A DNA stretch of 22,064 nt. Source: a virus. The first letter of the stretch is position 1, and the number at the start of each line of letters is the position of its first letter. Location of the stretch: positions 1-22,064 of the IMG/VR virus record IMGVR_UViG_3300019776_000608, one strand, 5' to 3'. Shown piece after piece: positions 6,549-22,064 of the stretch. Position numbers and translations under genes: made by a program. Below the pieces are notes generated by a model. It searched no databases. It had not been told where the DNA came from and saw only the letters and a list, made by a program, of their open reading frames with translations.

Positions 6549-6568
6549 CTGAGCCTCTTCTGTAAAGC

Positions 6569-6576
6569 GATAAATA
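6569..6576 (+). promoter_or_regulatory. Late-type promoter box for the sugar cassette
   Basis: The plus strand reads GATAAATA, one base from the T4 late core and the same variant seen ahead of the sheath gene. The next plus-strand start codon is 28 bases away at 6605, leaving a leader of about 20 bases that holds an AAGGTGAG ribosome binding site. If functional, the sugar genes would be expressed late, together with structural genes. Confidence 0.55.
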
Positions 6577-6585
6577 GATCCATGG

Positions 6586-6593
6586 TATTTATA
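6586..6593 (-). promoter_or_regulatory. T4 late promoter box for the gp13 operon
   Basis: The minus strand reads TATAAATA, an exact match to the T4 late promoter core. It is followed by about 37 bases to the gp13 ATG. Expected transcription start is near 6580. It almost abuts a plus-strand box (6569-6576), so the two diverge from the same short region. By position, it should drive gp13 through gp17 as one overlapping gene string. Confidence 0.75.
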
Positions 6594-6604
6594 AGGTGAG
6601 CGAC

Positions 6605-7774
6605 ATGAATGTACTAGTGATCGGAGACGCCATAATGGACAAGTACGTCTACTGTGGCACCGAGAGGGTATCCGCCGAGGCTCCTATCCCAATCTTCTAT
6701 CAGATCAAAGAGACCACCTCGCCGGGCGGGGTCTACAACGTCTATGAGAACCTCAAGGCTCTGGGGTGTAGGCCCGACATCATGACGGGTAGCACCTCGT
6801 TCAAGACTCGGTACGTCTGCGACAACAAGATAGTCTTCAGGTGCGACGACGACGCCACCGACAGTCACCCGACCAGCTCCTTCAAGTCTGACAAGCACTA
6901 CGACTACGTCGTCCTGGTCGACTACCTGAAGGGCACGATCACTTCAATAGAAGACCTCATCGAGTACTACAGCGAGAGAGGGAGTCGCGTCGTCGTAGAC
7001 ACCAAGGGAGCCTTACAGGAGTGCTCAGGTGCCTGGATGGTCAAGATGAACAAGCAGGAACTCAAGAAGAGCGGAGTCGAGGGCTATGAGGCGATCGACG
7101 TCTTAAAGTATTATGACATCAAGAATCTAATAATTACGGCTGGATCAGACGGCATATACACCTACAGCAAGGACGGGACGGTCGGTCGCTTTTTCACCGA
7201 GAGAGTAGAGGTAGCAGACGTCACCGGTGCTGGAGACGTGGTAACCGCTGGTATAGTGTCAGCTCTAGCAGAGGGTAGAGACCTAGCGACCGCGGTGCAT
7301 CAGGCCGCCGCGCTGGCCACGATATCAGTCACACGCTTCGGCACCTACAAGCTTACCGCAGAGGACATAGCCAAGGCCCGTCCTAAGGTGGTGTTCACCA
7401 ACGGCTGCTTCGACATCCTGCACAGAGGTCACATCGAGCTGCTCAAGGCGTCTCGCGAGATGGGAGACCGTCTGGTCGTAGGGATCAACAGCGACGACAG
7501 CGTTCGCAGGCTGAAGGGGATGTGTCGACCAATCAACGACCAGGAGTCTAGGAAGGCCGCTCTCGAGGCTATCAAGTGGGTTGATGAGGTGATCATCTTC
7601 GACGAGGACACACCGCTCGAGCTGATCAAGAGCGTACAACCGTCGATCATCACCAAGGGTGGTGACTACGAGGTCGCTACGGTGGTGGGCAACGAGCTGG
7701 CAGAGGTAAGAATCATTCCTCTGGTCGAGGGGTTCTCGACCACGGACATAGTGGAGAAGATACGAAATGAGTAA
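6605..7774 (+). CDS. hldE: HldE-like bifunctional heptose kinase/nucleotidyltransferase
   Basis: This 389-residue protein has two domains. Residues 1-250 are a PfkB-type sugar kinase: N-terminal VLVIGDAIMDKY, the PGG...N substrate/nucleotide motif (GG 41-42), DYLKG, and the catalytic VTGAGD motif (GAGD 208-211). Residues 260-389 are an adenylyltransferase with TNGCFDILHRGH (HxGH 273-276), KGGDY (351-355) and STTDI (378-382). This order is that of HldE, which phosphorylates D-glycero-D-manno-heptose 7-phosphate and later adenylates the 1-phosphate to ADP-heptose. E. coli HldE is 477 residues; here the kinase half is about 70 shorter. I chose ATG at 6605 because AAGGTGAG lies just before it; an in-frame GTG at 6596 is possible but falls inside that site. 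Its end overlaps the cupin gene by 8 bases. A different sugar substrate is possible. Confidence 0.9.
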   Translation: MNVLVIGDAIMDKYVYCGTERVSAEAPIPIFYQIKETTSPGGVYNVYENLKALGCRPDIMTGSTSFKTRYVCDNKIVFRCDDDATDSHPTSSFKSDKHYDYVVLVDYLKGTITSIEDLIEYYSERGSRVVVDTKGALQECSGAWMVKMNKQELKKSGVEGYEAIDVLKYYDIKNLIITAGSDGIYTYSKDGTVGRFFTERVEVADVTGAGDVVTAGIVSALAEGRDLATAVHQAAALATISVTRFGTYKLTAEDIAKARPKVVFTNGCFDILHRGHIELLKASREMGDRLVVGINSDDSVRRLKGMCRPINDQESRKAALEAIKWVDEVIIFDEDTPLELIKSVQPSIITKGGDYEVATVVGNELAEVRIIPLVEGFSTTDIVEKIRNE

Positions 7775-8126
7775 GCAGATAGTCGAGAAGGGCTGGGGAC
7801 GCGAGATCATATTCGCATCTAACGAGATGTACTGCGGCAAGCTTCTACAGTTCGACAAGACTGGATCTAAAGGAAGCATGCACTATCACATGAAGAAGGA
7901 CGAGACGTTCATGGTGGTTAGCGGATCGTTCATACTGAGGACGATCGACCAGAAGACAGCTCAGCTGAGCGAGCAGAAGATCGAGACGGGTCACGTCGTT
8001 CGCGTCATTCCAGGATTCGTTCACCAGCTAGAGGCGATCGAGGACGACTCACAGATCTTCGAGGTGTCGAGCCAAGACGACCCAGACGACAGCTATCGCG
8101 TGATGCCTGGAGACTCGCAGCGATGA
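7767..8126 (+). CDS. Small single-domain cupin, possible sugar-phosphate isomerase
   Basis: This 119-residue protein is one cupin barrel. It begins KGWGREIIF, like the C-terminal cupin of type II mannose-6-phosphate isomerases. Motif 1 carries likely metal ligands H39, H41 and E46 (MHYHMKKDETFMVVSG); motif 2 supplies H86 (PGFVHQLEA). The four ligands are all present, so a metal-dependent enzyme is plausible. It starts in ATGAGTAA overlapping the end of the hldE-like gene and overlaps the next gene by 4 bases (ATGA). Its place in a heptose-type operon suggests it isomerises or epimerises a sugar phosphate, perhaps standing in for GmhA, but that role is inference. Alternatives are a sugar-nucleotide epimerase or a binding protein. 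Confidence 0.75.
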   Translation: MSKQIVEKGWGREIIFASNEMYCGKLLQFDKTGSKGSMHYHMKKDETFMVVSGSFILRTIDQKTAQLSEQKIETGHVVRVIPGFVHQLEAIEDDSQIFEVSSQDDPDDSYRVMPGDSQR

Positions 8127-8458
8127 GATACATGGTCGACATCGACGGAACGATATGCAGGACAAAAGGTTCTGAGTACGAGAAGAGCGAGCCGATCAAG
8201 GAGAGGATTAACCACTTCAACATGCTCTACGACTGGGGTCACGAGATCCACTACTGGACAGCTAGAGGCGGAGTCTCGGGAATAGACTGGACTGAGTTGA
8301 CTGAGAGACAGCTGAGAGAGTGGGGCTGCAGGTACACGAGCCTGAAAATGAAGAAGCCGTCGTACGACGTGTGGATAGACGACAAGGCCATGAACGCTGA
8401 CCTTTATTTCTTAGGACCTCACAGGGAGATCAATCAAGATGAAGTTTGTCACCGGTAA
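8123..8458 (+). CDS. Compact HAD-family phosphatase
   Basis: This 111-residue protein shows the HAD signature in order: DIDGT near the N-terminus (D6 nucleophile, D8 acid/base), HYWTARGG (motif II Thr46), a lysine pair at 77-78 before PSYDVWIDDKA, and acidic motif IV (D86, D87). It is too short for a large cap domain, so it is a capless HAD that would act on a large or tethered substrate or form oligomers. In the operon it occupies the slot of GmhB, the heptose 1,7-bisphosphate 7-phosphatase, although GmhB is normally near 190 residues. It overlaps the cupin gene by 4 bases and the epimerase gene by 20 bases. Similar small phage HADs are often annotated only as hydrolases, so the substrate is inferred. 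Confidence 0.78.
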   Translation: MRYMVDIDGTICRTKGSEYEKSEPIKERINHFNMLYDWGHEIHYWTARGGVSGIDWTELTERQLREWGCRYTSLKMKKPSYDVWIDDKAMNADLYFLGPHREINQDEVCHR

Positions 8459-9218
8459 CTGTGGGTTCATCGGAAGGAACCTGTTGGCCAAGCTCGACGG
8501 TCAGGTGGCGTGCTACGACACGCTGACAAATACCCTTCCAGACATCTTCACGATTCTAGACGCGATAGAGTGGGAGAACATCGAGGAGATCTATCACTTA
8601 GGAGCTATCTCAGACACGACTTGCAAGGACATCAACCTTCTGCACGCCCACAACGTGGACTTCAGCATCAGACTATTTGAAAAGGCGATCGACTATCAGA
8701 TTCCCGTCACGTACGCTAGCTCTGGGTCCGTCTACGGCAACACATGCGAGAGCAAGCAATACAGGATCAACCCGCTCAACTACTACGCCATGACGAAGGC
8801 TACGGTAGACGCGTGGGTCGAGGACAACATGAGCAGGTTCAAGCTCGTGAGAGGCATGCGATTCTTCAACGTGTACGGAGAGAACGAGGGATCGAAGGGG
8901 GAGCAGGGAAGCCCGCACTACAAATTCATGCAGCAGGCCAACGAGACTGGGGTCATAAAGATCTTTGATAACTCTGACAACGCTTACCGAGACTTCATAC
9001 ACGTCAACAGCGTGGTAAAGACTATCCTAGAGTGCAAGAGAGAGTCTGGAATATACGACGTCGGTACCGCTGCTCCTAAGAGCTTCACTGAGGTGGCCGA
9101 GTCGATAGCTAGCAGGACTGGCGCTAGGATAGAAAGAATCAAGTTTCCCTTGAAGCTACAGGGAAAGTATCAGTACTGGACTCAGGCTCAGTACAACTAC
9201 AACGAGCTATTAAAATGA
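8439..9218 (+). CDS. hldD: HldD-like NAD(P)-dependent sugar-nucleotide epimerase
   Basis: This 259-residue protein is an extended short-chain dehydrogenase/reductase. It has the Rossmann glycine motif VTGNCGFIG (G6, G9, G12), the serine stretch YASSGSVYG (92-100) and the YxxxK pair Y116/K120. Further segments track HldD (ADP-L-glycero-D-manno-heptose 6-epimerase): IYHLGAISDTT, FFNVYGENEGSKG, FDNSDNAYRDFIHV, GIYDVGT, and FPLKLQGKYQYWTQA. E. coli HldD has 310 residues; this one stops soon after the WTQA segment, so the last C-terminal helix region (about 35 residues) is missing, and the rest of the shortfall is internal. The stop codon overlaps the stop of the convergent RCC1 gene. It ends the sugar operon. 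A GDP- or dTDP-sugar epimerase is a less likely alternative. Confidence 0.85.
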   Translation: MKFVTGNCGFIGRNLLAKLDGQVACYDTLTNTLPDIFTILDAIEWENIEEIYHLGAISDTTCKDINLLHAHNVDFSIRLFEKAIDYQIPVTYASSGSVYGNTCESKQYRINPLNYYAMTKATVDAWVEDNMSRFKLVRGMRFFNVYGENEGSKGEQGSPHYKFMQQANETGVIKIFDNSDNAYRDFIHVNSVVKTILECKRESGIYDVGTAAPKSFTEVAESIASRTGARIERIKFPLKLQGKYQYWTQAQYNYNELLK

Positions 9219-11594
9219 CTCTAACACTGCGAACGTAGCGCTAGACTTACCTGCTTCTACCAGCTTCCAACTGTTCTTGGTACCAACTTGAACCGGCGAC
9301 GTCATGGTGGTGTATACCGTAGGAGCTAGTCCCATAAGTTGGCCGACGTTGTTTCTTCCCCAAGTAAATAGTCTTCCAGCTACGTCTATGGCTGCGGTAT
9401 GTGCGTTTCCTGCAGATGCCATCGTCCACGAAGAAGATCCAACTTGTACAAAACTTGATCTGCCACCCACAGGTAGTACACCAAGTTGTCCGTAAGTTGA
9501 ATCTCCAGTTACCCACAGAGACCCGTCGCTCTTAACTATTACAGTGTGTCCGAATGAATTTGATATTTTAGCTCCAGCATAACCTGTACCAATTAAGGTC
9601 GGAGACGATCTATAGATAGTATCATTTAGTCCAAGTTGACCGGCAGCATTATATCCCCAGCCCCATAGAAGTCCGTCTGCAGTAATGCCATGAACAGACG
9701 CTCCGTTGGTGTAGACAGCAGTCCAAGACTTGTTTGCTCCAACTTGTGTTGGTGAACTTCTGCTAATAGTATTATTTAATCCCAGTTCACCAAAGCTGTT
9801 CGCACCCCACATGAATAGCTTGTAGTAAGATCCTTGATTCTGTAGGCCTATACTAATACTTCCGCCGGCGTATACGCGATGAAAAGTATCATTACTTACT
9901 TTCACCGGCTTAGATCTTGAAGACACTGAAGAGTTGAGTCCAAGACCTCCATTTGATGCGTATCCCCATGACCACAGAGTTCCGTCAGACTGTATTCCTA
10001 GTGCGTGTGTTTGCCCCATAGCTACAGCATTCCACGAGGTATTAGCAAACTTGTGGTAGTATCTTAATTCCCACAGGTATCCACCACTTATGCCGGCCGC
10101 GCCGGTACCGTTCTTGGCTCTTCCCCAGGCATACACACTTCCATTTTTAATGTAGTGCTTCACTCCGCTGAAGCTACCTGAACTGGTGACGTCCGGCCAC
10201 AGCTCTGAAGAGAGACCAGAACCTACTTGAACGAATGAAGATCTATCGATCCAAGTAAAGTCGCCGACTCCACCTGGACCCGCACTTACATATCCAGATC
10301 CAGAACCGTCATCTTGGGCGTTAGATCCAGCTGACCAGAGAGTGCCGTCAGTCTTTAGTATGAGGCTGTTGTAGTCAGCCGCCATTATCTTAGAGACTCC
10401 AGTTGCTACTAGAGTCGGAGAGCTTCTATCTATCTGGTCACCGGTTCCAAGTTGACCATAAATGTTCCATCCCCAAGCGTACAGATCACCGTTGGTCTTA
10501 AGCGCTAGAGAGTGTTGAGATGAAGCAGACACTGAGCTCCAGTCAGTGCCAGACCCAACTTGCACGAAGCTTGACCTGCTTAGAGTGTTGCTTATGCCGA
10601 GCTGGCCTCTCTGATTCCTTCCAACGGCAACTAGAGTACCGTTCGTCTGTACACCGAGAGCGTGTTGAGCACCAGGCGCGAAGCTGTTGAACCTAGCCTG
10701 AGAGACTCCGACCGTCATAGACCTAAATGCCGTAGTGGCAGAGTTAGTTCCACCTGGATAGTACAGGTCTAGACCTGCCCACCACATGTAGCCGCTACTG
10801 TCTCTTATGAACGATCTTCCTGGAGAGGCGTATACGTCTCCGCCTCCGTTCGCGAGCCCCGCCACTGCAGACCAACCGGGTGCAATGACTGGGTTTGATC
10901 TAGCGATAGTGTCGGTCTGACCCAACTGACGCTCGGCGTTTCTTCCCCACGCGTGCACAGTACCAAACCTGTCAAGGGCGATAGCGTGGTCTCCGGCTGC
11001 AGCAACTTTAATCCAGTCAGTGCTGCTTCCGACCTGTGAAGGTGAGCTTCTGAATATAGTGTCAGCTTTACCCAGCTGTCCTATAGTATTTCCACCCCAA
11101 GTCCACAGACTTCCGTAAGTCTCTCCGGTGTTTACTTTAATGCCGACGAAGAACTGTTTTCCAGACGCAGAGGCCTGAGCTCCATAGTCTTCTGCCCAGT
11201 AGCCGTCTACGCCGCCCGAGACAAAAGTTTTCCAGGAGGTGTACTGCGTGGAGGCGCCAACTAAGGTCGGCGAGCTTCTAGTTGCTGTCGTCCAAGCGGT
11301 CGTAGGTTGAACTCCAAAGTCATACTCGTTTAGAGAGTCACCCCAAATGCCAAAGTTGTTGTCTCCAAATATGTACAGTTCGCCTATGCTGTTCAGCGCT
11401 GCGGTAGCTTGAAACCCTTGAATAGTCGTCCAAGACCTGCTTCCAGGCAATGGATCAGCAAACGTAACGGCGGTGGGAGAGCTTCTGGACGCGTCGACGT
11501 TGATGCCGAGAGAGAAGTAATTAGAAAAACCCGAAGAGTAGATCTGTGTCTTTCCTACGGCCTTTGTCTGAAGACCCGAACCTAGTATAAGCAT
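9210..11594 (-). CDS. RCC1-repeat beta-propeller protein, 14 modules
   Basis: This 794-residue protein is built almost wholly of RCC1-type modules of about 55 residues. The repeated pattern is L.aWG.N..GQLG..dti.RSSP.qVG...W..V.ag..HslAl..dG. I count 14 modules, of which modules 2, 5, 8 and 9 carry insertions or have lost parts of the motif. Since RCC1 propellers have seven blades, 14 modules would fit two propellers. No signal peptide, membrane segment or enzyme motif is seen. It follows a tail-assembly-chaperone-like gene and a fibre gene on the same strand with AGGAGA just ahead of its ATG (11604-11609). I infer a virion-surface or receptor-binding role, but no function is proven. Its 3' end overlaps the convergent epimerase gene by 9 bases. 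Confidence 0.8.
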   Translation of the reverse strand: MLILGSGLQTKAVGKTQIYSSGFSNYFSLGINVDASRSSPTAVTFADPLPGSRSWTTIQGFQATAALNSIGELYIFGDNNFGIWGDSLNEYDFGVQPTTAWTTATRSSPTLVGASTQYTSWKTFVSGGVDGYWAEDYGAQASASGKQFFVGIKVNTGETYGSLWTWGGNTIGQLGKADTIFRSSPSQVGSSTDWIKVAAAGDHAIALDRFGTVHAWGRNAERQLGQTDTIARSNPVIAPGWSAVAGLANGGGDVYASPGRSFIRDSSGYMWWAGLDLYYPGGTNSATTAFRSMTVGVSQARFNSFAPGAQHALGVQTNGTLVAVGRNQRGQLGISNTLSRSSFVQVGSGTDWSSVSASSQHSLALKTNGDLYAWGWNIYGQLGTGDQIDRSSPTLVATGVSKIMAADYNSLILKTDGTLWSAGSNAQDDGSGSGYVSAGPGGVGDFTWIDRSSFVQVGSGLSSELWPDVTSSGSFSGVKHYIKNGSVYAWGRAKNGTGAAGISGGYLWELRYYHKFANTSWNAVAMGQTHALGIQSDGTLWSWGYASNGGLGLNSSVSSRSKPVKVSNDTFHRVYAGGSISIGLQNQGSYYKLFMWGANSFGELGLNNTISRSSPTQVGANKSWTAVYTNGASVHGITADGLLWGWGYNAAGQLGLNDTIYRSSPTLIGTGYAGAKISNSFGHTVIVKSDGSLWVTGDSTYGQLGVLPVGGRSSFVQVGSSSWTMASAGNAHTAAIDVAGRLFTWGRNNVGQLMGLAPTVYTTMTSPVQVGTKNSWKLVEAGKSSATFAVLESF

Positions 11595-11609
11595 TTAGTC
11601 GCGTCTCCT

Positions 11610-12104
11610 TTAGATAGCTGGTGGCTCAGGCCACGCGATGCTATCTATAGATGGAAGCTCCGAAGTCTGCATAGTCTCAAACGCGCTAGGAAAGTCTCTC
11701 AGCTGCTGCCTGTAAGCTTTCCAAGAGTCTATCCAAGCTTGACCCTTTATCTCAGCTGTGTCAGGAAGCATCGTCCAGTCAGTTCCAGAAAGTCTAGAGT
11801 TTCTTCTGTCGCGAACGAAGCGCATAAACGTATCTTTTATCTCGGCGTCGGTCTGTGGGTCCCACGGTAAGACTACGTAATAAGCCTCAACGTAGTCGCC
11901 GCGGTTCGTGTAACTCGTGTCTATTCTCTGCCACACAGAATCGTGCGGAGGAGCGTCGGTTGCTTCTACTATTGGAAGCCAACCTAGCTCCTTAAGAGCT
12001 TGAGAGTCCATGAGGTTAAAGTTGCTGTAGTTCTTCCAGCTAACAGGAAGAGAATCATGAATCTCGCTGATCTCTCCATTGTCTAAGTAAGCGTATCTAG
12101 TCAT
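11610..12104 (-). CDS. Tail fibre assembly chaperone-like protein
   Basis: This 164-residue protein resembles phage tail assembly chaperones of the Phage_tail_APC type. The C-terminal half has the telling layout: FVRDRRNSRLSGTDWTMLPD (about 91-110), then AWIDSWKAYRQQLRDFPS and a final WPEPPAI. The N-terminus (MTRYAYLDNGEISEIHDSLP) looks like the short beta region of fibre assembly proteins. It lies between the collagen-like fibre (10 bases before) and an RCC1-repeat protein (15 bases after), so one of these is its likely client. The upstream ribosome site is weak (AGGTTAGAG). Proteins of this family help fold or attach fibres and are usually not in the mature particle. Confidence 0.72.
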   Translation of the reverse strand: MTRYAYLDNGEISEIHDSLPVSWKNYSNFNLMDSQALKELGWLPIVEATDAPPHDSVWQRIDTSYTNRGDYVEAYYVVLPWDPQTDAEIKDTFMRFVRDRRNSRLSGTDWTMLPDTAEIKGQAWIDSWKAYRQQLRDFPSAFETMQTSELPSIDSIAWPEPPAI

Positions 12105-12114
12105 TTCTCTAACC

Positions 12115-15100
12115 TTACTTGCTGTCTATAATTACTGCGTTTCCGCGCCACGTCGTCCCACCGTTGTTTGTCATGAACGTAACGATGTCGACTCCCGAAG
12201 TAGTTAGCACTGGCGCGACTCCACCTGGCCACTTGACTGAGGCTGGCCAGGTCTGAGTTCCAGTACCTCCGTTAGTCAACTCAAGAATGACCAGGACGGC
12301 CCTAGACGCTGGAACGTTTGAGAATGTCCAGGTAAGAGCTCCAGACGCGGTCTTTATGAAGTAGTTACCCTGAGCGCAGTCGATGTCAGACGCCGACACT
12401 GTGACGATGTTCATGCCGTAGTTACCAGAGACGTCGATCGTCGCCGCTGGAGTAGAAGTTCCTACGCCGACCCTTCCGTTAGTCTTGTCGTACACGAAGG
12501 TGGCAGCGGTGTTAGCGTTTCCGCCGTCGTTAAAGACCACCTGAGTGTTTGTTCCAGGAACGGTGAACGATCCCTGCGAGCCAGTGAATCCTATCGAGCC
12601 CGTGTATCCGACCGATCCAGTGTAACCTACCGATCCAGTATATCCAGCTCCCGCAGATCCAGTGTAGCCGATGTTACCAACAGACCCGGTGTATCCTACC
12701 GAGCCGGCGTAACCGACACCTTGGGAGCCAGTGTAGCCCGTAGGACCCGCCACAGTCGACTCAGACCCAGTGTAACCTACAGGTCCTAGTGAGCCAGTGT
12801 AACCTACGGATCCAGTATAACCTACGCTGCCCGTGTAGCCGACGTCGCCGATCGATCCGGCGTAGCCTCTAGACCCAGTGAATCCGGCAGATCCAGTGTA
12901 GCCTATAGGACCTTGCTCAGTGGACGCGGACCCAGTAAATCCAGTGTCGCCCTTTGAACCGGTGTATCCTACCGACCCAGTATATCCGATGACGTCAGAC
13001 GCGGATCCAGTAAATCCAGTGGAGCCAGTGTATCCTACCGACCCAGTGTATCCCGGTATGTTGGATCCGGAACCCGTGTAGCCAGTGTCACCTATAGACC
13101 CAGTGAATCCGCGCGAACCGGTAAATCCAGCAGACCCAGTGTACCCTCTAGAGCCGGAGTAGCCGACGCTTCCAGTGTATCCAACACTGCCAGTGTAGCC
13201 GATCTCACCCTGCGATCCTGTATACCCTCTGGAGCCGGTGTAACCCAGAGGTCCAGGAACCTCGGAGGCAGATCCGGTGAATCCAATCGAGCCGGTGTAA
13301 CCAAGAGATCCAGAGTAGCCGACGCTGCCGGTGTATCCTATCGAGCCGGTGTAGCCACGAGATCCAGTATAACCTCTAGATCCGGTGTAACCTAGGAATC
13401 CCTGCCTGCCGGCGGCCGTAAGTATCCAGTTGTTCTGGAACCCAGCCCCGTCGACGACGTCGACCGCGATCGTTAGGTTTGCACCTACGTACGTGACGAT
13501 GTTACCCTCGTTAGAGACGTTTGGGTCGTCGACACAGATCATCCTGACGCGCATGCCAGGCTCGAACGCGTTCTCAGTGTAGTCCTGGTTCATGACCCAG
13601 GTCTTGTTGCCGGTGCCTGAGGCGTTCAAGTTGGTTGAGCTGGATACGCCGGAGTACCCTAGACCCATCGAGCCAGTGTATCCTTGAGTTCCGGCAGAGC
13701 CGGTGTATCCGTCTGGGTCTCCCTTAGACCCAGTGAATCCGGTGTAACCGGTAGTTCCCTGCGAGCCGGTGTATCCAATAACGCCTCTCGACCCGGTATA
13801 TCCAGGAACTTCGGAAGCGGACCCAGTGTAACCCTGTGAACCAGAGTAGCCTCTTAAGCCTTGAGGACCTACTGCGCCTACAGAGCCGGTGTATCCAACT
13901 GACCCGACGTAGCCAGTGTCTCCGCGAGAACCGGTGTAGCCGTCCGGTGGACCCTGTGATCCAGTCCATCCTTGAATACCCTGCGAGCCAGAGTAACCCT
14001 GTGAACCTGAGTAGCCTCTAGACCCAGAGTAACCTAGGCTGCCGGTGTACCCAAAGCTTCCAGTGTAGCCTCTAGACCCAGAGTAACCTAGGCTGCCGGT
14101 GTACCCAAAGCTTCCAGTGTAGCCGATCGAACCAGTATAACCCAGACTTCCAGTGTAACCTAGACTTCCAGTATAACCTGCAGATCCTGTGTAACCCGCA
14201 GATCCTGTGTAGCCGCGCAAGAACGCGATAGGGTCGGACCAGTCGCCTGACGTGTTGCTGAGCTTGTAGTAGATAGAGTCGGTGTCGGTAGCTAGAAACG
14301 AGAACCCCTTAGGCTCTGCGTCGAAGGTGCTCCTGTCAAGAAACACACCGACCTCGTCCGGCTGGAGGGACTCGCCGACCGAGCCGGTGAATCCTACTAC
14401 GCCTTGCTCACCGGGAGATCCTGTCAGACCTCTAGAGCCGGTGTATCCAGCTGAGCCGGTATAGCCTATGCTGCCAGTGTAGCCGATGACGGTAGAGGCT
14501 GAACCTGTGAATCCCGCGCTTCCCGAGTATCCTTGAGAGCCGGAGTATCCTAGTGAGCCAGTATATCCAAAGCTGCCCGTGTAGCCGAACGAGCCCGTGT
14601 AGCCGTTGACTCCGCGAGATCCAGTGTAGCCGAGAGACCCGGAGTATCCTAGTGAGCCGGTGTAACCTGCAGCTCCTCTAGAGCCGGTGTAACCGTTCGG
14701 CGGACCCTCTGATCCGGTGTAACCGACGTTGCCTTGGATACCTTGGGAGCCGCGAGAACCGGTGAAGCCGATAGAACCAGTGTAGCCGATGACCGTCGAG
14801 GCCGACCCGGTGTAGCCGGTAACGCCTCTAGAGCCAGTATATCCTAGTGAACCGGTGTATCCCGGAGCAGTTGACGCTGAGCCGGTGAATCCTGCAGAGC
14901 CGGCGAATCCTCTTGACCCCGCAAAACCCTTCGATCCAGCAAAGCCGCTCGTGCCGGTGAAGCCAGTCAGACCTCTAGAGCCGGTGTATCCTTGTATTCT
15001 AGCTTCTCCCCAGAAGCTGTAGCGAGGGGTGTTTGAAGGAAAATCAGCAAACGAACCAGATTGTCCAGCTGTGTTGAGCAAGTATACTACGTCAGCAGCG

Positions 15101-15372
15101 TGTCCTGGTAAAGTAGGAAACGGCGACGTAGTTACTTTTTCATTGTTGTACCAGACCCACCAAGACGGAGTGATGCTGTAGACCCAGACGATGCCACCGT
15201 CTAGTCCCCAGTCAAACCATATACCGGCACCGTTAGTGTATCCATCGCCGATGATAAGAAACCGAGTCCCCTCCTTGGCCGCCTTCTCCTCGAGTGGAAG
15301 AGTAGACCAGCTGTTGTAGAGATCGATCATCTCTTGTACGGAACCGCTGTAGTCAAAGAGAGTATCAGGCAT
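12115..15372 (-). CDS. Collagen-like GYTGS-repeat tail fibre
   Basis: This 1085-residue protein is a long fibre with collagen-like G-X-Y triplets, mostly as a six-residue unit GYTGSx (also GFTGSx, GYSGSx). Residues 1-127 form a non-repetitive Trp-rich head that may attach to the particle. Triplet arrays cover about 128-333, 387-575 and 660-934. Two globular inserts break them: 334-387 (FLATDTDSIYYKLS, SGDWSDPI) and 576-659 (FEPGMRVRMICVDDP, LTIAVDVVDGAG), both like small domains I recall from phage fibres. Residues 935-1085 form the C-terminal tip (VVFNDGG, GRVGVGTSTPAATIDV, GTQTWPASVKWPGG). A perfect late promoter box is 39-46 bases upstream, but no strong ribosome site is evident. Fibre function is well supported; the receptor is unknown. 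Confidence 0.88.
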   Translation of the reverse strand: MPDTLFDYSGSVQEMIDLYNSWSTLPLEEKAAKEGTRFLIIGDGYTNGAGIWFDWGLDGGIVWVYSITPSWWVWYNNEKVTTSPFPTLPGHAADVVYLLNTAGQSGSFADFPSNTPRYSFWGEARIQGYTGSRGLTGFTGTSGFAGSKGFAGSRGFAGSAGFTGSASTAPGYTGSLGYTGSRGVTGYTGSASTVIGYTGSIGFTGSRGSQGIQGNVGYTGSEGPPNGYTGSRGAAGYTGSLGYSGSLGYTGSRGVNGYTGSFGYTGSFGYTGSLGYSGSQGYSGSAGFTGSASTVIGYTGSIGYTGSAGYTGSRGLTGSPGEQGVVGFTGSVGESLQPDEVGVFLDRSTFDAEPKGFSFLATDTDSIYYKLSNTSGDWSDPIAFLRGYTGSAGYTGSAGYTGSLGYTGSLGYTGSIGYTGSFGYTGSLGYSGSRGYTGSFGYTGSLGYSGSRGYSGSQGYSGSQGIQGWTGSQGPPDGYTGSRGDTGYVGSVGYTGSVGAVGPQGLRGYSGSQGYTGSASEVPGYTGSRGVIGYTGSQGTTGYTGFTGSKGDPDGYTGSAGTQGYTGSMGLGYSGVSSSTNLNASGTGNKTWVMNQDYTENAFEPGMRVRMICVDDPNVSNEGNIVTYVGANLTIAVDVVDGAGFQNNWILTAAGRQGFLGYTGSRGYTGSRGYTGSIGYTGSVGYSGSLGYTGSIGFTGSASEVPGPLGYTGSRGYTGSQGEIGYTGSVGYTGSVGYSGSRGYTGSAGFTGSRGFTGSIGDTGYTGSGSNIPGYTGSVGYTGSTGFTGSASDVIGYTGSVGYTGSKGDTGFTGSASTEQGPIGYTGSAGFTGSRGYAGSIGDVGYTGSVGYTGSVGYTGSLGPVGYTGSESTVAGPTGYTGSQGVGYAGSVGYTGSVGNIGYTGSAGAGYTGSVGYTGSVGYTGSIGFTGSQGSFTVPGTNTQVVFNDGGNANTAATFVYDKTNGRVGVGTSTPAATIDVSGNYGMNIVTVSASDIDCAQGNYFIKTASGALTWTFSNVPASRAVLVILELTNGGTGTQTWPASVKWPGGVAPVLTTSGVDIVTFMTNNGGTTWRGNAVIIDSK
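12571..14991 (-). repeat. 18-bp coding repeat array (GYTGSx units)
   Basis: Nearly the whole span is made of imperfect 18-base units encoding G-Y/F-T/S-G-S-x, often with GYTGS spelled by alternative codons. It is interrupted at about 14212-14373 and 13396-13647, where globular inserts are encoded. Codon variation between units shows that most copies are old, with some recent exact duplications. Confidence 0.9.
14011..14124. repeat. Perfect 54-bp tandem duplication inside the fibre gene
   Basis: The segment 14011-14064 is repeated exactly at 14065-14118, followed by six more matching bases. The unit encodes 18 residues (three GYTGS-like blocks, ending GYSGSR) and keeps the reading frame. Exact identity amid otherwise diverged 18-base units points to a recent slippage or unequal recombination event. 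Confidence 0.9.
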
Positions 15373-15410
15373 TTTGACTCGTTCTTATTGTTGTTGGTAG
15401 GAATCTATGT

Positions 15411-15418
15411 TATTTATA
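15411..15418 (-). promoter_or_regulatory. T4 late promoter box for the collagen-like fibre
   Basis: The minus strand reads TATAAATA, an exact T4 late core, in the 51-base gap between the GT25 gene (stop at 15424) and the fibre start (15372). Expected leader is about 30 bases. It probably drives the fibre, the assembly chaperone and the 794-residue RCC1 protein together. Confidence 0.72.
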
Positions 15419-15423
15419 AGAAC

Positions 15424-16131
15424 CTACCGCTCATTACCCACGTTCTCGTCCTTGAGGCTTACGTCTTTCTTTCTATTAACGATCGTGGTTCCCTCGAACC
15501 TGTCGTAGGCGTAGAGGCCGGCCTGGCTGATGTTGAAGAGGTCAGCCCTCATGATGACGTCTAGACTCTCACATATCCCTCTCTGGACCAGCGTGCCAAG
15601 TAGGTTCTTGGCCATCGGTGGGTCTATGGCATAGGCGTGCGCCCTGCAGATGAAGTGGTAGTTGTTGTTGAGAGACCCGTGAGGAGGCACCGGTCCGATC
15701 GGCATCCTATTATTCTTCTGCTCCTCACCTCCGAGGTAGACGATGCTGTTGTAGGCGGTCATTCCCTCGTAGCGTCTGACCATGATGGCGTCGTGTTCGA
15801 GTATCACTATAGGTCTGTCCATCTCGAGACACTTAGCCCAGAGGCTGGCGTGGCTAAAGAAGCATGCGATCTCGGTGATGGACAGGTGGTGGTCGTACAC
15901 CTTCACCCACTTCAGCCACGACGAGTCTCGAGAGTGCTCAGGCACCTTGATGGACTTTCCGTCCGTAGCGTCGAAGGCGTCCCAAGTCTTCCACGGCATC
16001 CCGGCAAGGTCACACGACCTTTGACACCCCTTGGCCAGTCTCTCAGACTCGGTGTGGTTCTTGATCGTGATTATGTAAGCCGACTCTACAGACGTGTCGT
16101 AGCCAAAGTTAAGAGACTTAGAGAGGTCCAT
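15424..16131 (-). CDS. GT25-family glycosyltransferase
   Basis: This 235-residue protein looks like a family 25 glycosyltransferase, a group that includes LPS glycosyltransferases and, in animals, collagen galactosyltransferases. The visible hallmarks are AYIITIKNHTESERLAKGC near residue 18, WDAFDATDG (about 50-58), LSITEIACFFSHASLW (about 83-98), then the acidic sugar-nucleotide motif VILEHDAIM (about 109-117), and HAYAIDP near the C-terminal third. No signal or membrane segment is seen. It overlaps the preceding multidomain gene by 14 bases, so the two are probably translated together. Acceptor could be host LPS or a phage structural protein; the position next to the collagen-like fibre is suggestive but not proof. 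Confidence 0.82.
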   Translation of the reverse strand: MDLSKSLNFGYDTSVESAYIITIKNHTESERLAKGCQRSCDLAGMPWKTWDAFDATDGKSIKVPEHSRDSSWLKWVKVYDHHLSITEIACFFSHASLWAKCLEMDRPIVILEHDAIMVRRYEGMTAYNSIVYLGGEEQKNNRMPIGPVPPHGSLNNNYHFICRAHAYAIDPPMAKNLLGTLVQRGICESLDVIMRADLFNISQAGLYAYDRFEGTTIVNRKKDVSLKDENVGNER

Positions 16132-17851
16132 GGAGCGCAGCCTTCCTGAGCTCGCGGTCCAGCTCCTGCCTGTCGTGTCTTCCAGGCTTATGAACCTGAA
16201 TGAGTAGCTTCACTGACAGCACCACGTTGTTTAGGTGGTTGATCATGTACTCCAGTTGTTCCTCACCCATCTGTCCGGAGTCTATCGCAGCTTGAATAGG
16301 TCCAGTAAACTCTAAGGCATGCTCTATGACCTCGATGTCCACACCATGTGTGAAAGCGTGGTACGAGTCGGTCTCACCGGCAGTAGCTTTCTCGTAGCAC
16401 CTCTTCTTGTCAAACAGTCTGAAAGTATCGATGGTGAGCAGTCGCACGTGCTCCGGGTCGGACTTAGCGATATCACAGTTCCAGTGAGGGAACTGAACCT
16501 CCCACACCGCGCCGTTGTCGGAGACGCGGTACATCTCCTTGATGATGTCCTCGAACTTCACTCCCGAGTGACCGAGATGCTCTAGGATGTCTTTGGCTAT
16601 GATGTGACTGAACTCGTCGTCCTTCCACGGCCAGGTCTTGCTGTTCAGGTCTACGACCTGATCCGGCGAGCATATATCAGACGCGTCGACGTTGATGAAG
16701 CCCTCGTGCTTCTTGAAGCCGCACCCTAGGTTCAGCCTCTTGACCTCCTTGTCTTGAGACGGAAAGTCTAGGTGATCCAGTGAGAACTTCTTCTCCAGGT
16801 CTGCGTACAGTTTCTGGAAAGGCTGGTTCCACTCACCTTTCTTCTCCTGTCTGTAGAGTCTGACGCTCTCGTAGTACGGCGACGACGTCGAGTAGGGAGC
16901 GTTGAGAGTCCATGTGTGGTAGGGAAGGATCGGCACCATGACCCATGTCTCCTTACCAAGGGCAGCCGAGAGGTGAGCCACAGATGTGCAGGAGGTGATC
17001 ACGAGGTCTAGGTTCATAATAGCTGCGGCCGTGTCCTCCCACGAGATCAGAAGGTGCTGCAGGTCAATGATGTTCTCGGGAAGCTCGATGACGTTGTTGT
17101 CTCTCTGCAGAGAGTAGAGCTGCAGACCCTCGTACTCTGACAGCTGGGTCATGAACTTCTCTGGGAAGCGCCTGAACTGCTGGTGCTCGAACTTTGGGTT
17201 ACCCGCCCAGCGAATACCGATCTTCTTCTTGTCAGAGGTGAGGACGCTCTTCCACATCTCGACTGACTCTGGCTTAGCGGTCAAGTATGGCTCGCCAGGA
17301 AAGTCGTCGAACGTGTGACCAGAGAGCCATCCGGCAGAGAAGCCAGGAAGCCAGTAGTCGTGATGAACGGTGTGGGCCTCGGCGCGTGTGATGCACTTGG
17401 TGACTCCCTTAATTCGCTCTAGCATAGAGTGAAGGGACGGGTCGGCCGCGAGGTAGACGTTCTCTGCTCCAAGGTTCTTGAATGATGTGGCGAAGCGAGC
17501 GTGGATCATCTCGTCGCCGTACCCACCCTCGAGAGAGATGATGATCGACTTACCCGTGACGTCGTGCTCCTCTGGGTTGAACAGTGGAGCCGTAGTCTTC
17601 ATCGGCGGGCTGCCGTAGACCTTGATGAAGCGACCATTCTCGAGGAGCTGGCACCCCTCCTTGTACTTGTTCTGTTGAAGGAGGAACCAGCCTCGGTTGA
17701 AGCTGTGTCTGACCCACATCTCGGGATTCTTCTGACCGCGGGCGTCAAGGAGGTTCTCTGGCCCAATAGCCTGCATCTCCTCTGAGAGATGCCAGGCCTC
17801 GTCGAACCTGCCGTCGAGCATGAGCTTTAGTTGCATGTCAATCTTGTGCAT
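16118..17851 (-). CDS. TPR + GT-B glycosyltransferase + SAM methyltransferase fusion
   Basis: This 577-residue protein has three parts. Residues 1-75 contain two TPR-like helical pairs (GRFDEAWHLSEEM; NRGWFLLQQNKYKEG). Residues 100-355 resemble a GT-B glycosyltransferase of the GT9/GT41-like kind: SLEGGYGDEMIHARF, KKIGIRWAGNP, a C-terminal donor site with DLVITSCTSVAHLSAALGK and WVMVPILPYHTW. Residues 370-560 are a class I SAM methyltransferase with RLNLGCGFKKHEGFINVD (motif I around 373-378) and AKDILEHL. The methyltransferase could modify the added sugar. The start is supported by GGAGTAG just upstream and a late box sits 35 bases above. It overlaps the GT25 gene by 14 bases. Donor and acceptor are unknown; GT9 includes heptosyltransferases, which matters given the plus-strand cassette. 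Confidence 0.8.
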   Translation of the reverse strand: MHKIDMQLKLMLDGRFDEAWHLSEEMQAIGPENLLDARGQKNPEMWVRHSFNRGWFLLQQNKYKEGCQLLENGRFIKVYGSPPMKTTAPLFNPEEHDVTGKSIIISLEGGYGDEMIHARFATSFKNLGAENVYLAADPSLHSMLERIKGVTKCITRAEAHTVHHDYWLPGFSAGWLSGHTFDDFPGEPYLTAKPESVEMWKSVLTSDKKKIGIRWAGNPKFEHQQFRRFPEKFMTQLSEYEGLQLYSLQRDNNVIELPENIIDLQHLLISWEDTAAAIMNLDLVITSCTSVAHLSAALGKETWVMVPILPYHTWTLNAPYSTSSPYYESVRLYRQEKKGEWNQPFQKLYADLEKKFSLDHLDFPSQDKEVKRLNLGCGFKKHEGFINVDASDICSPDQVVDLNSKTWPWKDDEFSHIIAKDILEHLGHSGVKFEDIIKEMYRVSDNGAVWEVQFPHWNCDIAKSDPEHVRLLTIDTFRLFDKKRCYEKATAGETDSYHAFTHGVDIEVIEHALEFTGPIQAAIDSGQMGEEQLEYMINHLNNVVLSVKLLIQVHKPGRHDRQELDRELRKAALHGPL

Positions 17852-17885
17852 GTCTACTCCATGTTGTAGAATTACGACTCGCGTA

Positions 17886-17893
17886 TATTTATC
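17886..17893 (-). promoter_or_regulatory. Late-type promoter box for the glycosyltransferase pair
   Basis: The minus strand reads GATAAATA, overlapping the stop codon of the large RCC1 gene (17894-17892). The ATG of the TPR-glycosyltransferase gene is 35 bases downstream. Same variant as ahead of the sheath gene and the sugar cassette. Confidence 0.58.
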
Positions 17894-20800
17894 ACTCGGT
17901 CTTCGTAGCTAACACCGAGTCATAGCCCGAGTTGACCGAGACCCAGCTGCCGACGCGTCCCTCGGCGATGAAAGTTGGGTCAGATCTAGTGCCAGGATTG
18001 CTACCGAGTCCAGTAAACGTTCCAGGCGCACCCCAGATGTACCTGTCTCTAGTCCCAGCCTCGATGGCTGTCACATATACGCTGGTGTGAAGTATAGTCG
18101 AGAAGCTGCGAGATCCAGTTATGAGAGTAGGGGAAGATCTAGCTATAGTATCTCCGGTTCCTAACTGTCCGTTACCTGAGCTGGTGCCCCAGGCAAAGGC
18201 TCTACCTGTCGCGTCTATCGCAGAGGCTCTGTTACCTACGTTTTGTGCACCTTGAACTGCTGTCCAAGAGCTAGTTCCTATTTGCGTAGGAGAAGATCTA
18301 GCTACAGCGTTTCCAGTACCAAGGATTCCGTTAGTGTTGTCTCCCCACGCCCAGAGAGTCCCATCGGACTTGATAGCGATGACGTTACTCAGCTTCACCG
18401 TGATCTTGTTTGGATCCGTAGTCCAGTCACTGGACACTAGCACCGGCTCCGATCTATTCACTGAGCTGTTCTGTCCGGTTCCAGAGGCAGTTCCCCACGC
18501 ATAGAGGGCGCCGTTGATCGTGATAGCCGCGGCGGTAGTCCCACCTACCTTTACGATCGCGAAGCTACTGGTCTGGCCTACTCCAGTCACCTGCACCGGA
18601 GACGACCTGTTGATAGTGGTGTTGTCTCCCAGCGTGCCGGTGGAGTTGTTACCCCAGGCCCACAGCTTTCCAGTAGAGCTGATCGCCGCGGTGAACGAAG
18701 TTCTGCTGCTCACGAAAGACCAGCTGCTGGTGCCAACCTGCGTAGGGGAGCTTCTGTTGATAGTGTCGTTCAGACCTAAGTTTCCGTTGGCGTTGTCTCC
18801 CCAGGCCCAGAGCCTGCCGTCGGCGGTGATCCCGTGCGTAGAGCTGTCTCCTGCAGAGACCATCAGCCAGCTGCTGTTACCGATCTTTGTGTAGGCTGGT
18901 CGGTTCAACACGTCGTTGGTACCAAGTTCTCCGGATGGACCTGCACCCCATACCCAGAGGCCTCCCTCTGAGTCGATGAGGGCGACGTGCGAGAGACCAG
19001 CGGAGGCGGAGCTCCAGTTCTCACCCACTTGAACTGGGAGCGACCTGTTTCCAATCGTTGAAGATATACCGAGCACGCCGCCGGTAGGTAGACCAAAGGC
19101 CCACATTGTTCCAACCGTGTCGATGGCTTGCGAGAAACCATTTGCTCCGGCACCTATCGCGGTGAAGCTCTTTCCAGCCATCACCTGCACCGGAGAAGAT
19201 CTTGATACGGCGTCTTGTATTCCGAGCTGTCCTGACGTGTTGAGACCCCAGGCCCACAGAGTGCTGTCAGTCTTTAGACCGAGCGTGTGCGAGTTGCCCG
19301 TGGCTATCTTCTTCCAGGTGCCGTTGTCTATCTTGATCGGGACGTACGCCGACGTAGTAGTCAGTCCGTCTCCGAACGCTCCGTCCTTTCCAGCGCCGAT
19401 GGCGTAGAGAGACCCGGCAGTCGACAGCACCATAGTGTGTGAGCCGAGCATGCTCGGAGCTAGCTCCTTGGCCGAGAAGTTAGGCCCGAACAGAGCTACT
19501 GGAGAAGAGGTGCTATTGATAGAAAAGGCTCCTGGTCTGTAACCCCAGGCGTAGACCACCTGACCATAGTCTCCGACGGCTATCACGGTGTTCTCGCCGG
19601 AGGCCACGTGGGTCCAGTCGTTCTTTGTCCCAACCTGAGTCGGCGACGACCTCGCGGTGATGCTTCCAAGACCCGTCGATCCAGACTGACCGTAGCCCCA
19701 GGTCCACAGTGTGCCGTCGGTCTTGATTCCCGCCTGAGTCGGGTAGTCCTGTCTGGCGTACGAGACCATCGACCAGGATCCTGGGATCTGAGTGAACGAC
19801 TGGAGTGGGTTCACCATGGAGCCAGAGTTGTTACCGACGCCCCACGTCCAGACCTTTCCAGTGGTGTCCATCTCTCCAAGTATTGTAAATCCAAGAGTTT
19901 TAACCGCTACGCTCGTAGTTCTCCAACTCGTAGCGGTCCCTATCTGAGTTGGTGATGACCTATTTACAGCGTCCTTTGTGGCAATCTGATAGTAAGAGTT
20001 GTCACCCCAAGCCCATAGGGTGCCGTCGGTCTTCACCGCCTTAGTAGTTCCATACAACATGTGAGAGTTGTTGGACCACGGGCCGTCTGGGTAAGCGCGG
20101 TGTCCTTTCGTGCCTTCCATGATTGTTCGCGAACTGGTGTTCCAAGAGTTAGTCGTGGTGCTGTTGTTTCCGAGGACGTAAGGTGTGTTAAGATGACCCT
20201 CGGTAAGAATCATAGTCTTATTATAGATAGCAAGATGATAGTACTGAGTGGTGCAGCTGTTCTTCCAGTCTCCTACTCCTACTAGGACCGGCGAAGACCT
20301 GTCTCCGGTTATAGAGTCTACTGCTCCCATCGCGTACAGCGCTGAACCTCTGATAGCAGTATTGACCTCTGTAATAAGAGTTTTACCTAGAGCCGTCCAG
20401 CCAGTAAGAGCTCCCACTTGAGTAGGCACTGACCTATTTCTAACATCTCCAACCCCTAGTCTCCCCTGCGAGTTAGACCCCCACGCCCATAGAGAAGTGG
20501 CTGTGGTGATGCCCATGCTACCGTAGTAGCCGGCAGATACCTGCGACCAGCTGCTGGTACCGACTTGAATCGGAGAAGACCTGCTTGTCGAGATGTCTAG
20601 ACCTAGACATCCGTAGCCAGCGTCACCTCCCCAGGCGAACAAGGCTCCGTCAGTTCTTATAGCTAACATGTGCGGCTCTCCTACAGAGACCGCAGACCAG
20701 CTACTGGTGCCGAGTTGGACCGGCGAAGACTGATGAACGTTGCTAGTGTTGAGACCGAGTCTTCCTAGACTGTCGTCACCCCAGACAAACAATCTAAACG

Positions 20801-22064
20801 CGCTTATTCCTGCAGAGCCCGCATTTCCGGTCGAGATAGCGCTCCAGCTGCTGGTGCCTATCTGTATCGGTGAAGACTTGTTTATGGTGGTGCCGTCTCC
20901 CAGTCTTCCCAGCCCGTTAGAGCCCCACGCCCAGAGAGTTCCGTCTGTCTTTCTCGCTAGCGTGTGTGCTCCTCCGGCAGAGACGTCTGACCAGTTAGTC
21001 AATGAGCCAACCTGTACCGGAGAAGACCTGTTGTTGGTGTCGTTTGTACCTAACCTTCCGTCCGTGTTGAGACCCCATGACCAGAGAGAGCCGTCCGATC
21101 TAACCGCTGCGACGTGATCTATACCCATCGACAGCACTGACCAAGACAGAGTCTGTCCGACTACAGTAGGCCACGAGCGGTTGACTTGATCGCCGTGTCC
21201 TTGGTTCAAGTATATGCCGTTGCCCCACGTGAGCAAGTTTCCGTCGGACATTCTTATAAGAGACGTCCCGTAGTCAGAAGCGCTGACGCTGGTCGCGCTT
21301 ATTCCAGTGTAGGTCAGCGGGGCTCCGATTGATACTGGAGAAGACCTGTCGATCCCGTAGACTTCGTTTCGGGCTCCGATAGATCCTCCGAGGTAGCTGT
21401 TTTGGTTCGAACCCAGTCCCCACGTATAGACCTGACCGTTGGTCTTTATGCCGATCATGCTCTTAGACTCGTTCGAGGACGCGCCCGAGAAAGCCACCAT
21501 GGTCCAAGCTCCCGCCACCTGCACAGGTGAAGACCTGTTTATAGTGTCGCTGACTCCGAGCTGACCATTCGCGTTACCTCCCCAGGTCCACAGCGTGCCG
21601 TCGGTCTTTATCGCGGCCACGCTGGACTGACCTATCGCGACGAAGTTCCAAGATCCCGCCACCTGCACGGGAGAGGACCTGCTCGCCACGCTGTTCTGAC
21701 CGAGCTTTCCGTCCGTGTTAACACCCCAGGTGAACAACCGTCCAGCGGTGTCTATCGCCGCCGCCACTTGGTTATTAACTGCCACGAACGACCAGCTGCT
21801 GCTTCCTATCTTCTGAGGGTTTCTGAACCTGTTTACTGTAGTACCGTCGCCTATAGTACCAGCGTTGTTGTTTCCCCAGGCCCAGAGACTTCCGTCGCTC
21901 TTCACGCCTAGAGCTGTAGAGTAAGAAGACTCAAAGTTAGGGTAGTAGCCGAAGGCTACCATGGTCCAAGACCCGGCCGCGGCACCGAGAGTCTCGTTGA
22001 AGGGCTCGTTCATGTACCCTAAGATCGGGTTAAAGAACGGACCGCTTCTTCCAGCCGCTCCAGC
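17892..22064 (-). CDS. Giant RCC1-repeat protein, 5' end outside the window
   Basis: This frame is open to the right edge, giving at least 1390 residues; the internal ATG at 22013 is probably not the true start because 17 codons upstream stay open (AGAAGRSGPFF, NPILGY). From about residue 33 on it consists of RCC1 modules of about 50 residues with the motif LwaWG.N..G.LG..dt.nRSSPvqVG.ssWs.Vs...... I count about 26 modules, several degenerate (for example the stretch at about 20080-20220). At seven blades per propeller this suggests near four propellers in a row, plus whatever lies beyond the edge. No enzyme motif, signal or membrane segment is evident. It shares motif wording with the 794-residue protein, so the two are paralogues. 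I infer a virion-surface protein from position; function is unknown. Confidence 0.8.
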   Translation of the reverse strand, partial: AGAAGRSGPFFNPILGYMNEPFNETLGAAAGSWTMVAFGYYPNFESSYSTALGVKSDGSLWAWGNNNAGTIGDGTTVNRFRNPQKIGSSSWSFVAVNNQVAAAIDTAGRLFTWGVNTDGKLGQNSVASRSSPVQVAGSWNFVAIGQSSVAAIKTDGTLWTWGGNANGQLGVSDTINRSSPVQVAGAWTMVAFSGASSNESKSMIGIKTNGQVYTWGLGSNQNSYLGGSIGARNEVYGIDRSSPVSIGAPLTYTGISATSVSASDYGTSLIRMSDGNLLTWGNGIYLNQGHGDQVNRSWPTVVGQTLSWSVLSMGIDHVAAVRSDGSLWSWGLNTDGRLGTNDTNNRSSPVQVGSLTNWSDVSAGGAHTLARKTDGTLWAWGSNGLGRLGDGTTINKSSPIQIGTSSWSAISTGNAGSAGISAFRLFVWGDDSLGRLGLNTSNVHQSSPVQLGTSSWSAVSVGEPHMLAIRTDGALFAWGGDAGYGCLGLDISTSRSSPIQVGTSSWSQVSAGYYGSMGITTATSLWAWGSNSQGRLGVGDVRNRSVPTQVGALTGWTALGKTLITEVNTAIRGSALYAMGAVDSITGDRSSPVLVGVGDWKNSCTTQYYHLAIYNKTMILTEGHLNTPYVLGNNSTTTNSWNTSSRTIMEGTKGHRAYPDGPWSNNSHMLYGTTKAVKTDGTLWAWGDNSYYQIATKDAVNRSSPTQIGTATSWRTTSVAVKTLGFTILGEMDTTGKVWTWGVGNNSGSMVNPLQSFTQIPGSWSMVSYARQDYPTQAGIKTDGTLWTWGYGQSGSTGLGSITARSSPTQVGTKNDWTHVASGENTVIAVGDYGQVVYAWGYRPGAFSINSTSSPVALFGPNFSAKELAPSMLGSHTMVLSTAGSLYAIGAGKDGAFGDGLTTTSAYVPIKIDNGTWKKIATGNSHTLGLKTDSTLWAWGLNTSGQLGIQDAVSRSSPVQVMAGKSFTAIGAGANGFSQAIDTVGTMWAFGLPTGGVLGISSTIGNRSLPVQVGENWSSASAGLSHVALIDSEGGLWVWGAGPSGELGTNDVLNRPAYTKIGNSSWLMVSAGDSSTHGITADGRLWAWGDNANGNLGLNDTINRSSPTQVGTSSWSFVSSRTSFTAAISSTGKLWAWGNNSTGTLGDNTTINRSSPVQVTGVGQTSSFAIVKVGGTTAAAITINGALYAWGTASGTGQNSSVNRSEPVLVSSDWTTDPNKITVKLSNVIAIKSDGTLWAWGDNTNGILGTGNAVARSSPTQIGTSSWTAVQGAQNVGNRASAIDATGRAFAWGTSSGNGQLGTGDTIARSSPTLITGSRSFSTILHTSVYVTAIEAGTRDRYIWGAPGTFTGLGSNPGTRSDPTFIAEGRVGSWVSVNSGYDSVLATKTE

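Follow-up and report, generated by a model that had tools for sequence, protein, structure and literature searches.

The window analysed here spans the whole of IMG/VR record IMGVR_UViG_3300019776_000608, a 22-kb fragment (22,064 nucleotides (nt)) of T4-like phage origin, and carries a set of tail fibre genes interspersed with genes for two predicted glycosyltransferases (GTs). The order on the minus strand is an RCC1-repeat fibre (RCC1_A), a fusion of tetratricopeptide repeat (TPR)-like helices with a GT and a methyltransferase (MT), hereinafter TPR-GT-MT, a GT25 family enzyme, a collagen-like fibre, a tail fibre assembly chaperone and a second RCC1-repeat fibre (RCC1_B), followed by gp13-like, gp14, gp15, gp16, terminase and sheath genes. 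Between RCC1_B and gp13 sits a plus-strand cassette of four mutually overlapping open reading frames (ORFs), hldE-cupin-HAD-hldD (6596-9218), the putative source of an ADP-heptose donor. An initial annotation of this DNA proposed a self-contained system in which the cassette supplies both GTs for the decoration of the repeat-rich fibres. The ORFs and domain matches bear out the positions of the cassette, GT25, TPR-GT-MT and the fibres, so that the observation is partly confirmed, and the interpretation is partly supported by the results described below. The collagen-like fibre and RCC1_B indeed lie between the cassette and the GTs, whereas RCC1_A, directly upstream of TPR-GT-MT, was outside the interval considered. 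Phage tail fibres determine which bacteria are infected, and GTs in host-recognition islands are usually explained as remodelling the host lipopolysaccharide (LPS); should the family described here act on the fibre instead, this standard explanation does not hold for one recurring group of aquatic phages.

The fibre linked to TPR-GT-MT is of the RCC1 type. Relatives of TPR-GT-MT were surveyed in 114 viral contigs, and 80 loci were read. In 66 of the 76 loci with a visible neighbour, the gene immediately preceding TPR-GT-MT on its strand encodes an RCC1 fibre (median gap, 58 nt); in six more, RCC1 lies two or three genes upstream. The remaining four have another repeat fibre (L051 and L052), a glycine-rich fibre (L074) or an RCC1 fibre on the opposite strand (L064). 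When the family is reduced to 52 clusters at 95% identity, RCC1 is found in 48 clusters, GT25 in 39 and hldE in 14. The RCC1/TPR-GT-MT pair is retained beside gp13-gp18 in some loci and beside ribonucleotide reductase genes in others, and additional neighbours include O-methyltransferases, GT2 enzymes, UDP-galactopyranose mutase, sulfotransferase and carbamoyltransferase. This linkage is far above the T4-like background. Among 80 loci anchored on gp13, three encode the full TPR-GT-MT and all three encode RCC1 (Fisher p = 0.0026, partial copies counted); among 80 loci anchored on hldE, six encode RCC1 and all six of these encode the GT (p = 2e-8), with one additional GT locus that has no visible RCC1. 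Many contigs are fragmentary and the loci are non-independent, so that these p values are indicative. The proposed tie between the GTs and fibres holds, then, for RCC1 and not for the collagen-like fibre, which is absent from most TPR-GT loci; this fibre and the donor genes are optional parts of the module.

The same association is seen in 50,697 phage records, where the top T4-like RCC1 matches (S-SRM01, BUCT-ZZ01 and AG-345-E08) are also the best TPR-GT matches; RCC1_B used as a single-sequence anchor retrieved no relative from viral contigs. In the genomes of 84,980 species, a scan with short conserved peptides, which distant cellular enzymes would escape, detected only one TPR-GT relative, on a contig of a metagenome-assembled genome with a phage-like gene order. 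This contig (L250; CAIWHI010000271.1, binned as an uncultured Bacteroidetes) has the order fibre, chaperone, fibre, TPR-GT-MT and neck-like gene, and is probably a phage contig.

Although a Pfam search with TPR-GT-MT gave no match, its AlphaFold model (pLDDT 89.9) consists of N-terminal helical pairs (residues 1-75; helices 3-12, 16-29, 43-59 and 63-70), a GT9-type GT-B domain (approximately 94-358) and an S-adenosylmethionine-dependent methyltransferase fold (369-556), in agreement with the architecture originally proposed. Compared with solved structures, the GT-B part scores a Z of 17.6 with 3tov, 16.8 with WaaF (1psw), 16.2 with TibC (4rap) and 15.7 with WaaC (232-250 residues aligned, root-mean-square deviation 3.0-3.4). 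The motifs EGGxGDE, GIRWAGNPKFEHQQFRxFP and SCTxxAH are kept down to 46% identity, and G112-D113-E114 and SCTxxAH, which are equated with WaaC/WaaF residues by motif only, are invariant or nearly so among 22 relatives. Like WaaC and WaaF, the enzyme has the GT-B GT9 fold (Z 15.5-16.8), and its GD and TxxxH-type motifs can be aligned with theirs by eye; unlike them, it has additional TPR-like and MT parts and, in the same motif-only alignment, Cys/Ser in place of their donor-site Asp. Significant sequence similarity is lacking: the family search yielded no PF01075 match in the window, TPR-GT-MT included (a paralogue in L037 reaches E = 0.004, below the cut-off), hhalign of the GT against Escherichia coli WaaF was not significant, and a sequence-profile search of solved structures with TPR-GT gave no match. 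The bacterial autotransporter heptosyltransferases (BAHTs) TibC and AAH share with TPR-GT-MT the GT9-like fold (Z 16), an adjacent repetitive adhesive surface protein and heptose donor genes at hand, but in the phage the adjacent protein is a tail fibre, an MT is fused, and the two-CxxC iron finger is missing. The window protein contains no CxxC, and in none of 56 family members does the GT region contain two; because these iron-finger cysteines are absent, TPR-GT-MT is not classed as a BAHT. As modelled, it is a phage-restricted enzyme of the GT9 fold. The GT and the MT are encoded by two separate, adjacent genes behind RCC1 in L172 and L205, and therefore the fusion united genes that were already side by side.

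GT25 matches PF01755 with E = 1e-14, above the Pfam cut-off, and its EHD motif, of a metal-binding type, is invariant in 17 sequences. The closest structures are a bacterial GT25 beta-1,4-galactosyltransferase (8xkd, Z 16.4), mimivirus R655 and human COLGALT1 (Z 14.2). Because the nearest structures are galactosyltransferases, the expected donor is a UDP-sugar rather than ADP-heptose, and therefore the gene set is not self-contained.

T4 late promoters have ATAAATA as their core. The window contains seven HTAAATA matches, six of them ATAAATA, compared with 2.0 expected, and five of the seven precede TPR-GT-MT, the collagen gene, gp18, gp13 and hldE at distances of 20-51 nt (Table 1). Across the loci, ATAAATA occurs upstream of TPR-GT-MT in 26 of 80 cases vs 2 of 80 inside genes, and upstream of gp13 and the collagen genes in 111 of 161 and 16 of 34 cases, respectively. 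The late-promoter-like sites of hldE and gp13 are divergent and fall within about 25 bp of each other (window 6548-6596). Among 378 ORFs occupying the five positions that follow the GT, a simple hydropathy scan (at least three transmembrane-like segments; the WaaL control has 7) detected no multi-pass membrane protein, and no Gtr-type membrane protein (GtrA, GtrB or Gtr) was seen among these ORFs.

Table 1. Genes and late-promoter-like sites of the fibre and glycosyltransferase region in the window.
Feature	Coordinates	Strand	Basis or remark
RCC1_A, RCC1-repeat propeller fibre	17892..22064	-	ORF; repeat family by similarity to RCC1_B
TPR-GT-MT fusion	16118..17851	-	ORF, structure model, conserved motifs
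GT25-family glycosyltransferase	15424..16131	-	PF01755; 14-nt overlap with TPR-GT-MT
Collagen-like fibre	12115..15372	-	PF01391, E 2e-80
Tail fibre assembly chaperone (Phage_tail_APC)	11610..12104	-	PF16778, E 9e-13
RCC1_B, second RCC1-repeat fibre	9210..11594	-	PF00415, E 3e-65
HldE-like, short PfkB kinase + nucleotidyltransferase	6596..7774	+	rfaE domain I/II similarity
Cupin with HxHxxxE metal site	7767..8126	+	candidate sugar-phosphate isomerase
HAD-type phosphatase (DxDGT)	8123..8458	+	candidate GmhB substitute
HldD-like ADP-heptose epimerase	8439..9218	+	converges on RCC1_B
ATAAATA, late-promoter-like	17886..17892	-	about 35 nt upstream of TPR-GT-MT start
ATAAATA, late-promoter-like	15411..15417	-	upstream of collagen fibre
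ATAAATA, late-promoter-like	6570..6576	+	20 nt upstream of hldE
Late-promoter-like site of gp13	6586-6592	-	divergent from hldE site

Among these computed features, which also include the fold and the conserved motifs, it is the tight and oriented linkage, the late-promoter motifs, the restriction to phages and the absence of membrane GTs that lead us to favour modification of the RCC1 fibre. We see an even chance that a late-expressed, phage-specific cytoplasmic module glycosylates, and perhaps methyl-caps, this propeller tail fibre. The more specific proposition, that aquatic T4-like phages possess dedicated late glycosylation of RCC1 fibres, with a phage-restricted TPR-GT9-methyltransferase, exchangeable donor and capping genes and a cupin replacing GmhA, falls a little short of an even chance. 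In this scheme, where the fibre as acceptor, the identity of the donor and the methyl capping are what we infer, TPR-GT-MT would be made just after the RCC1 fibre and would bind the new fibre in the cytoplasm, probably via the N-terminal helical repeats, in the way that FlmG binds flagellin. The GT9-type GT-B domain would then move a sugar from a nucleotide donor onto the fibre, the fused MT domain would methylate the sugar or glycan, and GT25 would extend or cap it, a role that GT2, extra O-methyltransferases, sulfotransferase and carbamoyltransferase may play in relatives. In the window phage, hldE-cupin-HAD-hldD probably enriches an ADP-heptose-type donor; other phages may draw on host donors or on other cassettes, such as UDP-galactopyranose mutase. 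The modification might serve to stabilize the fibre, to tune its receptor binding or to hide it.

Two known systems provide precedents that support such modification. FlmG of Caulobacter is a TPR-glycosyltransferase for flagellin, the TPR part of which binds the substrate (PMC7591256). Similarly to TPR-GT-MT, it combines N-terminal helical repeats and a GT-B domain in one cytoplasmic protein, and it serves a polymeric surface filament; the likeness is one of domain layout, not of compared sequences, and the RCC1 substrate is putative. The differences are that FlmG uses pseudaminic acid and has a TPR part of 313 amino acids, whereas the phage-encoded protein has helical pairs of about 75-90 amino acids and a fused MT. 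In the mycobacteriophages Che8, Corndog and Myrna, phage-encoded GTs modify virion proteins (Freeman 2023, via PMC12363180); the targets in these unrelated phages are capsid and tail tube proteins, not fibres.

Several observations weigh against fibre modification. Linkage by itself is no proof that the neighbour is the substrate, and RCC1 fibres of Clostridioides, Brevibacillus, Pseudomonas and Erwinia phages have no annotated TPR-GT neighbour; these four groups also gave no TPR-GT match in the phage-record search (one of the records is unannotated). The GT-B fold resembles the LPS heptosyltransferases WaaF and WaaC as closely as it resembles the protein heptosyltransferase TibC, and with Z scores less than 2 apart, the fold therefore cannot separate a protein acceptor from an LPS acceptor. 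The sulfotransferase, carbamoyltransferase and UDP-galactopyranose mutase found near the module are also typical of polysaccharide loci. The sequence signatures tried as markers of an acceptor failed: Thr at the collagen Yaa position is equally frequent in loci without the GT, and the RSSP loop of the RCC1 repeats, at first seemingly enriched, is rare in the RCC1 fibres of three members that have the GT (0 of 13 in BUCT-ZZ01, 1 of 14 in L250 and 1 of 14 in L205). GT-linked RCC1 has a higher Ser+Thr content (median, 23.5%), but phylogeny confounds this difference, and the RCC1 sequences without linkage used for comparison are few and include L001, a fragment of the window itself. Finally, psbA was not found in the 118-kb relative L002, and therefore the host of the window phage is not assigned despite the cyanophage-like terminase (closest to cyanophage ACG-2014d, 56%).

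One alternative concerns the donor step, and it is a serious contender while remaining less than probable: the hld cassette would serve a purpose of its own, with its own glycan and carbamoyl- or other transferases encoded elsewhere, and would have arrived here by modular shuffling, so that only TPR-GT-MT and GT25 act with the RCC1 fibre. This is compatible with RCC1-fibre glycosylation and differs from it in the origin of the donor. In the cassette, HldE matches rfaE domains I and II with E values of 4e-46 and 2e-51, under the NCBIfam equivalog cut-offs, and retains the kinase GAGD and HxGH motifs; HldD matches heptose_epim with E = 1e-54, also under the cut-off, and is 33% identical to E. 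coli HldD. GmhA (SIS, PF13580) was found in none of 15 hldE-bearing contigs, some of them 182-221 kb long, and of 36 surveyable hldE loci, 35 also have the cupin. From its sequence, the cupin is a candidate to stand in for GmhA as the isomerase, and host GmhA is another possible source of this step.

The cassette is enriched near TPR-GT, being present in 12 of 39 clusters with sufficient flank compared with 0 of 31 gp13 loci (p = 7e-4), which argues against a wholly separate purpose, as does the use of ADP-heptose by characterized GT9-fold relatives. However, the two are separable both ways. On one side, hldE is missing from 10 of the 20 long TPR-GT records, including a 244-kb contig and the complete genomes of BUCT-ZZ01, where only a sub-threshold nucleotidyltransferase match was obtained, and S-SRM01, both of which combine RCC1 with TPR-GT. 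On the other side, TPR-GT is missing from 12 of the 16 long hldE contigs and 73 of the 80 hldE-anchored loci; a 198-kb contig and the cultured phages P-SSM2 and S-CAM1 have the cassette without the GT, and in these two phages the same set of four genes adjoins tail fibres and a carbamoyltransferase. The co-occurrence of GYTGS fibres, TPR-GT and hldE/hldD expected from the initial annotation is accordingly not obligate, and the outcome which that annotation had set as its own refutation, donor genes lacking the GTs and the fibres, is borne out by these counts.

The main rival, well short of an even chance, is the conventional explanation, under which TPR-GT-MT, GT25 and the heptose cassette alter the LPS core, the O-chain or another surface glycan of the host, preventing superinfection or the loss of progeny on debris; the GTs would adjoin the fibres since both belong to a host-recognition island. 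GTs and rfaE in the host recognition cluster of pelagimyophages and cyanomyophages have been read as O-chain genes (PMC7029224), which counts against fibre modification. That cluster occupies the same position as the genes in the window, with fibres, GTs and rfaE preceding the neck genes; the portion of the source at hand contains no description of the RCC1/TPR-GT-MT pairing. The match of the GT-B domain to WaaF and WaaC, the name of the GT25 Pfam family ('LPS biosynthesis') and the polysaccharide-type neighbours point in the same direction, and LPS remodelling stays in play because the GT fold fits both acceptors and an acceptor signature was not found. Against it, the GT is tied to one type of fibre by order and strand, beyond mere membership in an island, and TPR-GT-MT has a late-promoter motif, unlike the superinfection-exclusion genes of T4, which are early. 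Furthermore, the ORFs downstream of the GT include no flippase, ligase or membrane GT, and the TPR-GT family is almost absent from cellular genomes. Cyanobacterial LPS lacks heptose (PMC4515613), which makes heptosylation of LPS less likely for the cyanophage members without settling the case of the window phage.

The proposal in its original form, with the cassette feeding ADP-heptose to both TPR-GT-MT and GT25 for decoration of the GYTGS collagen fibre, is improbable: all parts do lie within 11 kb in the window, the enrichment of the cassette, the TibC-like fold with its ADP-heptose precedents, the kinship of GT25 with collagen galactosyltransferase COLGALT1 and the Thr-rich Yaa positions speak for it, but the rarity of collagen at GT loci, the equally high Thr where no GT is present, the separability of donor genes and GT, and the use of UDP-galactose in GT25 structures speak against it. 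Nor does the collagen-like fibre contain over a hundred GYTGS units as claimed, with 57 exact copies and 85 matches to G[YFW][TSA]GS among 208 Gly-X-Y triplets. Between fibre glycosylation by the RCC1-linked module and the other readings, the question is directly testable in the cultured phage BUCT-ZZ01, which grows on the laboratory cyanobacterium PCC 7942.

Some further features of these loci are of note. RCC1-linked modules carry carbamoyltransferase and sulfotransferase genes (L205, 7384-9680; L251) and, in S-SRM01, a 2-oxoglutarate-Fe(II) oxygenase, hinting at varied glycan capping. The window HAD protein is 39-44% identical to the P-SSM2 (L262) and S-CAM1 (L263) proteins labelled 'phosphoheptose isomerase', and the 'cysteine dioxygenase' of these phages is a relative of the window cupin; because the proteins are related to the HAD phosphatase and the cupin, both labels look wrong from sequence comparison. 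The 5' part of RCC1_A is lost at the window edge, and the counterpart in L002 is 2570 amino acids long. Judged against L002, the window (9210-22064) ends before the collagen and chaperone genes of a first fibre unit. In this 94% relative (3-21731), the collagen-chaperone-RCC1 unit is found twice, flanking TPR-GT-MT/GT25 on either side, which suggests a duplicated fibre unit.

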